In this document: positions 17,492 to 34,764 of the stretch, piece after piece
How positions within the stretch are numbered: position 1 is the first letter of the stretch
How the letters are laid out: the number at the start of each line of letters is the position of its first letter
Origin: a virus
IMG/VR virus record: IMGVR_UViG_3300026295_000001
Coordinates: 1 to 47,750 of that record
Reading direction: 5' to 3' (one strand)
Length of the DNA: 47,750 bases
The notes under the pieces: model-generated
What the model was told of the DNA's origin: nothing
Database searches by the model: none
The model's input: only the letters and a program-made list of their open reading frames with translations
Made by a program: the position numbers and the translations under genes

Positions 17492-17508
17492 ACGCCACCT
17501 AGTAAACT
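17480..17508 (+). promoter_or_regulatory. Sigma70-like promoter with AGTAAACT -10 element
   Basis: TTGACG at 17480-17485 and TAAACT at 17503-17508 are separated by exactly 17 bases. The -10 lies in the shared element TAGTAAACT (17500-17508). The -35 overlaps the 3' end of the last lysis gene. Transcription would begin near 17515 and enter the 597-base gap that contains the tRNA-like element. Confidence 0.6.
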
Positions 17509-18068: not shown

Positions 18069-18076
18069 AGTAAACT
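18069..18076 (+). promoter_or_regulatory. AGTAAACT promoter element before the early block
   Basis: AGTAAACT is shared with 17501, 28656 and 33612. The ATG at 18089 lies only 12 bases after it and has no Shine-Dalgarno, so if TAAACT is the -10 the mRNA would be nearly leaderless. No good -35 lies 17 bases upstream; TTGACT at 18054 is too close. Confidence 0.45.
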
Positions 18077-28633: not shown

Positions 28634-28675
28634 TAGTAAACCCTACTTGACAGCTAGTAAACTGCCTGCTACCTT
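28634..28675 (+). promoter_or_regulatory. Promoter region with two AGTAAAC elements 21 bp apart
   Basis: CTAGTAAACC (28633-28642) and CTAGTAAACT (28654-28663) repeat at 21 bp, two helical turns, on the same face. TTGACA (28647-28652) lies between them and is followed at 17 bp by TACCTT (28670-28675), a sigma70-like pair. The element could therefore be an operator around this promoter or, by analogy with the 17500 and 33612 sites, TAAACT itself the -10. Confidence 0.6.
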
Positions 28676-33391: not shown

Positions 33392-33608
33392 CGCGTCGCC
33401 CGCCGGGCTGGGCGTGGCGCCCGTGATTAGTGTTCCGCCGCCGGGCGCGGTCCACGACCTCAGTCGCATTCTCCGCACCATTCGGGGGGAAGACCTGGGG
33501 CTCTCCGGCCAGGGGGCCCGGGTGTGGCGTGGGATCCAAGGACGCCTGGCTGCGCTCCTCGCGTCGCGTGGGGTCCGCAGCACGTATCCCTTGCGGCCCG
33601 ACGCGTGA
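33378..33608 (+). CDS. Small hypothetical protein
   Basis: 76 aa from GTG 33378, overlapping the previous gene by 14 bases; later GTGs are possible. Residues 35-70 are helical and basic (DLSRILRTIRGEDLG, then VWRGIQGRLAALLASRG). No ribosome binding site is clear. The promoter element at 33591 lies in its 3' end. Confidence 0.5.
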   Translation: MPANDASPAGLGVAPVISVPPPGAVHDLSRILRTIRGEDLGLSGQGARVWRGIQGRLAALLASRGVRSTYPLRPDA

Positions 33609-33619
33609 GACAGTAAACT
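33591..33619 (+). promoter_or_regulatory. Promoter with AGTAAACT -10, before the anti-defence cassette
   Basis: TTGCGG (33591-33596) and TAAACT (33614-33619) are 17 bases apart. The -10 lies in CAGTAAACT, shared with 17500, 18069 and 28655. ATG 33629 follows after 9 bases without a Shine-Dalgarno, which fits a leaderless mRNA. Confidence 0.58.
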
Positions 33620-33628
33620 AGCTCGCAC

Positions 33629-33760
33629 ATGATTCTCACTACGATGGGCCGCTGGCATCTCGAGCTCCTCGCGGGGCTGGCCGTGGGCTTCTGGTATCAG
33701 CGGAAGCCCCGCAACATCACGATCGTGCTCGGCCCGTTCGCCCTGTGGTACGATGAGTAA
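33629..33760 (+). CDS. Very small protein, probably leaderless
   Basis: 43 aa from ATG 33629. A hydrophobic stretch with aromatic residues (HLELLAGLAVGFWYQRK) and IVLGPFALWYDE at the end; possibly membrane-associated. It sits directly behind the promoter and overlaps the next gene by 8 bases. Not recognised. Confidence 0.55.
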   Translation: MILTTMGRWHLELLAGLAVGFWYQRKPRNITIVLGPFALWYDE

Positions 33761-34001
33761 GCACAACGGGATTCCCGTGCCGCCGATGCCGCGCGCGATG
33801 CGCACCGTCCTGGTGCCCGAGGATCGGCCGTTCATCCTCGTGTTCCTGAACGACGATGGGTATCCGAACATCACCGCGCCCACCGGCCAAGCGGAGGGCT
33901 GCGCGATCGCCTACATGCTGCTCGAGCTCGCGCGCCACTACGTAGACCGCCAGTACAGCGAGTACACCGGCGTGCACCGGCACATGGTGACGCCGCCGTG
34001 A
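33753..34001 (+). CDS. Small hypothetical protein
   Basis: 82 aa. Contains PFILVFLNDDGYPNITAPTG, a small beta unit, and a helix (CAIAYMLLELARHYVDRQYS). Coupled by GTGA to the next gene. In the same cassette as the Acb2-like gene; a role in counter-defence is possible by neighbourhood only. Confidence 0.6.
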   Translation: MSKHNGIPVPPMPRAMRTVLVPEDRPFILVFLNDDGYPNITAPTGQAEGCAIAYMLLELARHYVDRQYSEYTGVHRHMVTPP

Positions 34002-34201
34002 GCCGCAAGTTCGCGATTGAGTTCTTCGGCGGCCCGATCGACGGTCATGTGGTCGAGCTCGTCGAGCCGGGGAAGGCGTGGGCCGCGTGGACGGACGAGG
34101 AGGGCCAGCGGCACTATTACGCGCTCGAGGTCCGGGTCGGCGGGCCCCGCTATGTGTACCGACCAGGAGCGAAACCCACTGCTGCACCCGAGGGGGGCTG
34201 A
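33998..34201 (+). CDS. Small hypothetical protein
   Basis: 67 aa from GTG 33998 (GTGA). An all-beta small domain (RKFAIEFFGGPIDGHVVELV, then RHYYALEVRVGGPRYVYRPG). FFGGPxDGH is a pattern seen in short phage proteins of unknown role. It lies one base before the Acb2-like gene. Confidence 0.6.
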   Translation: MSRKFAIEFFGGPIDGHVVELVEPGKAWAAWTDEEGQRHYYALEVRVGGPRYVYRPGAKPTAAPEGG

Positions 34202-34423
34202 ATGGCCGTGAAGCGCGAGCAGCTCGACGATCTGTTTACTTACCACGCGCCCGACGACGACCAGCAGATCAAGTACGCGAAGATCCGCATGGCGGGTCGC
34301 GCGCTCGCGGAAGTCATCCTGGAGTGCACGCCGGTCTGCGGCGATCAACAGGCGGCGATCCGCCTGCTCCGAGAATCGGTGATGACGGCGAACATGGCGG
34401 TGGCGCTCAAGGGGATTGTCTGA
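34202..34423 (+). CDS. acb2: Acb2-like cyclic-nucleotide sponge (anti-CBASS)
   Basis: 73 aa. The pattern LFTYHAPDDDQQIKYAKIRM, then ALAEVILECTP, then AIRLLRESVMTANMAVAL matches the small helical phage family that includes Acb2: F-x-Y-x-x-P, Q-x-x-x-Y-x-x-I-R and M-x-A-N-x-A-x-A. Acb2 proteins form hexamers that bind the cyclic di- and trinucleotides used by CBASS, and some bind the cADPR-type signals of Thoeris, so the host nuclease or phospholipase is not activated. Recognised from memory of the family; binding residues are not verified. Confidence 0.72.
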   Translation: MAVKREQLDDLFTYHAPDDDQQIKYAKIRMAGRALAEVILECTPVCGDQQAAIRLLRESVMTANMAVALKGIV

Positions 34424-34764
34424 TGCTCGCGTCCACAGAGATTGCGAGCATCGCACACGAGGCGAACCGCGCCTACTGCGCGGCCCTCGGCGACGACAGC
34501 CAGCCGGCGTGGGAGGACGCCCCCGACTGGCAGCGGGAGTCGGCGCGCAACGGTGTCGAGGCGATCCTCGCCGGCCGGGTGCAGAGCCCGGAGCAGTCAC
34601 ACGAAAGCTGGCTGCGCGAGAAGACCGACGCCGGCTGGCGCTACGGTCCCGTCAAGGACCCGGAGCAGAAGACGCATCCGTGCTTCCTGCCGTACGGGGA
34701 GTTGCCCGAGGCACAGCGGCGCAAGGATGCGTTATTCTTCGCGATCGTGAAGGCGCTCACGTAA
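34423..34764 (+). CDS. RyR-domain protein
   Basis: 113 aa with TGATG coupling to the Acb2-like gene. The sequence carries the RyR domain: IASIAHEANRAYCAALGDDS, DWQRESARNGVEAIL, SHESWLREKTDAGWRYGPVK and THPCFLPYGELPEAQRRKDA. The domain occurs in ryanodine receptors and in many bacterial and phage proteins. Its place beside a sponge protein suggests a role in nucleotide-signal or NAD-based defence, but no activity has been shown for this protein. Confidence 0.85.
   Translation: MLASTEIASIAHEANRAYCAALGDDSQPAWEDAPDWQRESARNGVEAILAGRVQSPEQSHESWLREKTDAGWRYGPVKDPEQKTHPCFLPYGELPEAQRRKDALFFAIVKALT

Follow-up and report, generated by a model that had tools for sequence, protein, structure and literature searches.

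A candidate two-signal counter-defence cassette in a virus genome: an Acb2-family hairpin protein encoded together with a RyR-domain protein

Introduction

What purpose might be served by a run of small phage genes in which an Acb2-like protein and a RyR-domain protein are encoded one directly after the other? Acb2, known from Pseudomonas phage PaMx33 (gp24) and from T4 (Vs.4), is an anti-CBASS sponge, and Tad1 is a sponge for gcADPR, CDNs and CTNs that acts on the signals of both CBASS and Thoeris. We considered that the run might divide between two proteins what Tad1 does as one, and we regard it as probably a two-signal counter-defence cassette directed against CBASS and Thoeris, with ligands that are predicted. 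The stretch of DNA analysed here (the window) is the complete IMG/VR virus record IMGVR_UViG_3300026295_000001, of 47,750 bases and 67.7% G+C.

Results

The five genes of the run lie on the plus strand at 33629-34764, downstream of a conserved promoter-like site (Table 1), and are followed by an ORF of 110 aa (34784) and then by a terminase gene (Pfam Terminase_6N). The initial annotation had listed five ORFs and a translational coupling between genes 34202 and 34423. All five were found at the starts it gave, with a codon-position composition typical of coding sequence (GC3 0.81-0.90 versus GC2 0.38-0.51), and the start of 34423 overlaps the stop of 34202 (TGATG). The starts of 33753 and 33998 likewise overlap the stop end of the gene before, and 34202 begins immediately past the preceding stop, with zero gap. 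At the DNA level the locus matched no GenBank phage, and the six proteins searched had zero matches in NCBIfam and PADLOC.

Table 1. Positions of the promoter-like site and of the five genes in the window
Feature	Position	Strand	Basis
Promoter-like site	33591..33619	+	TTGCGG 33591-33596, 17-base spacer, TAAACT 33614-33619, AGTAAACT 33612-33619
43 aa small protein, hydrophobic stretch	33629..33760	+	ORF, composition; no family
82 aa small protein	33753..34001	+	Homologue in L001 only
67 aa small protein, GGPxDG motif	33998..34201	+	Homologue in L001
73 aa Acb2-family hairpin protein, predicted cyclic di-/trinucleotide sponge	34202..34423	+	PF24729
113 aa RyR-domain (RyDEP-family) protein, predicted 3'cADPR/2'cADPR sponge	34423..34764	+	PF02026, 35TM

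A promoter of the run's own, carrying a shared element, had also been suggested. The octamer AGTAAACT occurs in four exact copies in the window, all on the plus strand, against 0.11 expected, and no shuffle gave four. The copy at the head of the run contains TAAACT, with TTGCGG 17 bases upstream, and only nine bases separate TAAACT from the ATG at 33629, so that a transcript from this site would be leaderless or nearly so. The copy at 17501 has TTGACG, likewise at 17 bases; those at 18069 and 28656 lack this spacing. The layout is kept in the closest relative, L001, as TTGCGT-N17-TAAACT-N9-ATG ahead of its homologous small-gene run. Because a generic sigma-70 consensus scan did not call the site, the label 'promoter' rests on repetition and conservation; on these grounds, the site is likely a conserved near-leaderless promoter. 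At 28635-28663, AGTAAACC and AGTAAACT form direct repeats 21 bases apart around TTGACA, and these repeats may be an operator instead of a -10 box.

The product of 34202 matches PF24729 (Acb2_Tad1_hairpin) at 34.2 bits, against a Pfam cut-off of 27. Its AF2 model, built with 20 sequences (pLDDT 92.1), has helices at residues 5-12, 19-42 and 47-68, that is, the short N-terminal helix followed by two long antiparallel ones described for Acb2 (PMC12043709). In Foldseek searches with this model, cGAMP-bound T4 Vs.4 occupied ranks 1-3 (prob <=0.89, TMq 0.52-0.63) at non-significant E values of 1.4-2.4, and Acb2 itself (8h2x) ranked ninth; with a fold of this size, E values of 1.4 or worse are non-significant. 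Among PDB sequences, a profile search recovered 'Acb2 homolog 43' (9ptq), though only at E=0.0011. Cereblon-like PDB matches obtained with the single sequence by phmmer were rejected as chance hits. By its family score and model, the protein is a member of the Acb2 family on a divergent branch, which shares the PF24729 hairpin with Acb2 but differs in being a 73 aa form encoded with RyR, its ligand and hexamer being predicted. The antiparallel beta sheet at the N terminus of Tad1 is not present in the all-helical model, so that the window, unlike Tad1, would divide the job between two proteins with no sheet.

The product of 34423 matches PF02026 (RyR) at 45.1 bits, against a cut-off of 27.4, and PDB entry 35TM (2.2e-13), which is RyDEP, gp78 of mycobacteriophage DyoEdafos (PMC13232231). 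All four ligand or catalytic residues of RyDEP are kept, H75, W78, H100 and D117 aligning with H60, W63, H85 and D102, and they are invariant across 81 aligned RyR sequences. Of eight RyDEP homologues reported, six bind 2'/3'cADPR and two do not, and those from Ruegeria and Pectobacterium are nanomolar sponges (PMC13232231). Identity is 64/112 to the RyR protein of Pectobacterium phage CB1 and 47/113 to that of a Ruegeria phage, which come from the same hosts as the tested sponges and may be other proteins, compared with 35/113 to the glycosidase RyDEP (gp78). Because identity is higher to the Pectobacterium and Ruegeria phage homologues than to gp78, we predict that the 34423 product is a sponge, and by homology it is a probable anti-Thoeris protein of the RyDEP family, a role that the initial annotation had missed. 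It shares with RyDEP and with the sponge-type homologues H4 and H7 the RyR/R12 domain and its four residues, and, like RyDEP, it is a small phage protein adjoining another counter-defence gene. The partner of RyDEP, however, belongs to NARP1 NAD+ synthesis, whereas that of 34423 is an Acb2-family sponge, and the activity of 34423, at 31% identity to gp78, is predicted.

Might 34423 instead be a glycosidase-type RyDEP, which hydrolyses 2'cADPR and 3'cADPR to linear ADPR and is no sponge? The catalytic dyad H75/D117 (H60/D102 in 34423), W78 and H100 are all retained, but these residues do not vary anywhere in the RyR set, and cleavage was seen with none of the eight homologues tested (PMC13232231). 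In addition, Q54 of RyDEP corresponds to A41 in a protein of only 31% identity, and a NARP1-type partner was not found in the genes adjoining 34423. We consider hydrolysis decidedly unlikely, and the sponge is retained in what follows.

The three genes upstream of 34202 had been put forward as candidates for further inhibitors. Their products have no family match in Pfam, NCBIfam or PADLOC; that of 33629 has no matches at all, and for those of 33753 and 33998 the only homologues, among the loci searched, are near Acb2 in L001. At the remaining Acb2 and RyR loci covered by the search, none of the three genes was seen again. The AF2 model of the 33753 product is poor (pLDDT 53). With no families, relatives in L001 only and this poor model, the suggestion is unsupported, and the three may be ordinary small phage genes.

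L001 alone was close among the relatives found by terminase, with 73% identity in that protein and 92% in Acb2. It carries the Acb2 gene without RyR, and other genes occupy the RyR position. The hairpin-RyR pair is therefore not obligatory, and RyR looks like a plug-in at a site where L001 keeps Acb2 and has other genes. Immediately 5' of the L001 Acb2 gene lies an HNH-endonuclease-like gene (L001:1269-1715), a possible route of exchange for the small-gene region.

Is the pairing seen elsewhere? Flanking sequence was searched at 80 RyR loci from viruses, 80 from bacterial genomes and 80 Acb2 loci from viruses. A same-strand hairpin no more than 1 kb from RyR was seen at 13 loci in addition to the window, each hairpin scoring above the Pfam cut-off, with L256 borderline (27.1); the hairpin of L241 (22.5 bits, under the cut-off) was left out. 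In four of these loci, the two modules form a single ORF, as hairpin-RyR in L122 and as RyR-hairpin in L009, L030 and L240; they are adjacent and unfused in L048, L072, L137, L187, L193, L214, L228, L256 and L258. The order and tight spacing of the window recur in L187 (Bacillus canaveralius), L258 (Nonomuraea thailandensis) and L137. RyR domains of the hairpin-linked loci are at most 72% identical, which means that these loci are not copies of one locus. In the bacterial-genome flanks, 7/8 hairpins that pass the cut-off are no more than 500 bases from RyR (binomial P 5e-7), and in virus records with both modules the hairpin lies within 1 kb of RyR in 4/8 (P 8e-5); both P values are rough, as they assume uniform placement, and proximity could be inflated by the clustering that small accessory genes show in phages anyway. 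The Acb2 hairpin and RyR are neighbours, or one fused protein, in many unrelated phages.

In a control of 50 random virus records, picked with an arbitrary 14-mer, PF24729 was found in six and PF02026 in none. Whole-genome co-occurrence is consequently not enriched from the RyR side (PF24729 in 8/80 RyR-bearing versus 6/50 random virus records): the hairpin is simply common, and only its proximity is enriched. Co-occurrence at the genome level was dropped as an argument after this control. From the Acb2 side, RyR is present in 9/80 records versus 0/50 random ones, a figure given no weight because the nine include two near copies and several that are distant.

These results bear on whether 34202 and 34423 are functionally unconnected, two accessory genes that chance has placed under one promoter in a variable region of small genes preceding the terminase. 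Such a region is suggested by L001, with its different genes downstream of Acb2 and its HNH gene upstream, and the missing genome-wide enrichment of hairpins in RyR-bearing records agrees with it; chance would, however, hardly produce adjacency time and again, with four fusions, among divergent loci, and we think this explanation unlikely.

Other partners of RyR were also found. In a Bacteroidetes contig, L236:5965-6639 is an RyR-Tad2 fusion (PF11195, 64.7 bits), and in L182 (Paenibacillus) a Tad2-like gene overlaps an Acb2 gene, with RyR about 5 kb off and a second Tad2-like gene beyond. Tad2 is thus fused to RyR in one locus and near Acb2 and RyR in the other, but it was not found adjoining the cassette of the window. 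L216:5476-6315 (Pectobacterium fontis) encodes an N-terminal Gp49-like domain (PF13876) followed by RyR, and L267:2674-3342 (Vibrio phage FGH) has an architecture resembling it. Frequent RyR proteins, such as L033:3920-4825 and similar ORFs of about 290-320 aa, are extended at the C terminus by about 170 aa with no Pfam match. Runs of RyR occur at L261:161-9271 and L262:2243-11171, with about 11-13 RyR-domain units in about 9 kb, at the starts of two virus records of about 110 kb that have Acb2 too (loci L105 and L103). One protein in these runs, of 268 aa, contains two RyR domains; the H/W/H/D residues are retained in some units, and one or more are lost in others. Such a run is a large paralogous RyR family within one phage.

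Discussion

The interpretation first given for this run stands in most of its parts and lacks support in one. The Acb2-like identity holds at family level (PF24729 over the cut-off and an Acb2-like three-helix model), as do the RyR domain (PF02026 over the cut-off), the coupling of the two genes and the promoter-like site, with its repeated element and a layout kept in L001; a role as inhibitors is unsupported for the upstream genes, which have neither families nor, among the loci searched, relatives past L001.

How might the cassette act? We propose that a short operon would be transcribed from the promoter-like site, with an activity and timing that are predicted. The 73 aa protein of 34202, folded as an Acb2-type helical hairpin, would form a hexamer and sequester the cyclic di- and trinucleotides by which CBASS effectors are activated. 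The RyR protein of 34423 (113 aa) would be made via coupled translation, dimerise and sequester the Thoeris signals 3'cADPR and 2'cADPR, which are made by TIR proteins; that it hydrolyses them is less likely. With both proteins made from one transcript, two signal classes would be blunted.

It might be objected that 34202 is a hairpin-fold protein that binds no nucleotide and that the ligand of the RyR protein is an ordinary adenine nucleotide, bound in some other role. The similarity of 34202 to solved Acb2 structures is weak, and animal R12 domains bind adenine ligands (PMC13232231), but anti-defence activity has been tested for members of each family (PMC13232231; PMC12043709) and a fusion of RyR to Tad2 exists as well, and we judge this very improbable.

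Could the two modules be one physical unit, in which an RyR dimer is tethered to an Acb2 hexamer, giving two kinds of pocket? Fusions in both orders, and neighbours with start/stop overlap, would fit such an arrangement, but most RyR proteins are solitary or have other partner domains (Tad2-like, Gp49-like), which makes it rather doubtful. We offer more readily, and still tentatively, the broader possibility that RyR and the Acb2 hairpin form a recurrent, physically coupled dual sponge with separate pockets that would take up CBASS nucleotides and TIR-made cADPR simultaneously, assembled by phages modularly as Acb2-RyR, RyR-Acb2 or RyR-Tad2.

The first description of RyDEP dates only from May 2026 and set it among NAD+ synthesis genes; Acb2, Tad1 and Tad2 are all unmentioned in that preprint (PMC13232231), and no paper linking RyR to Acb2 or Tad1 came up in our literature search. 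RyDEP recurs as a neighbour of Acb2-type hairpins or in fusion with them, and in one case is fused to Tad2, which suggests that sponges against different alarm signals are packaged together by phages. The natural fusions are ready constructs for asking whether linkage improves evasion, and recurrent partners of RyR or of the hairpin could guide the way to further anti-signal proteins.
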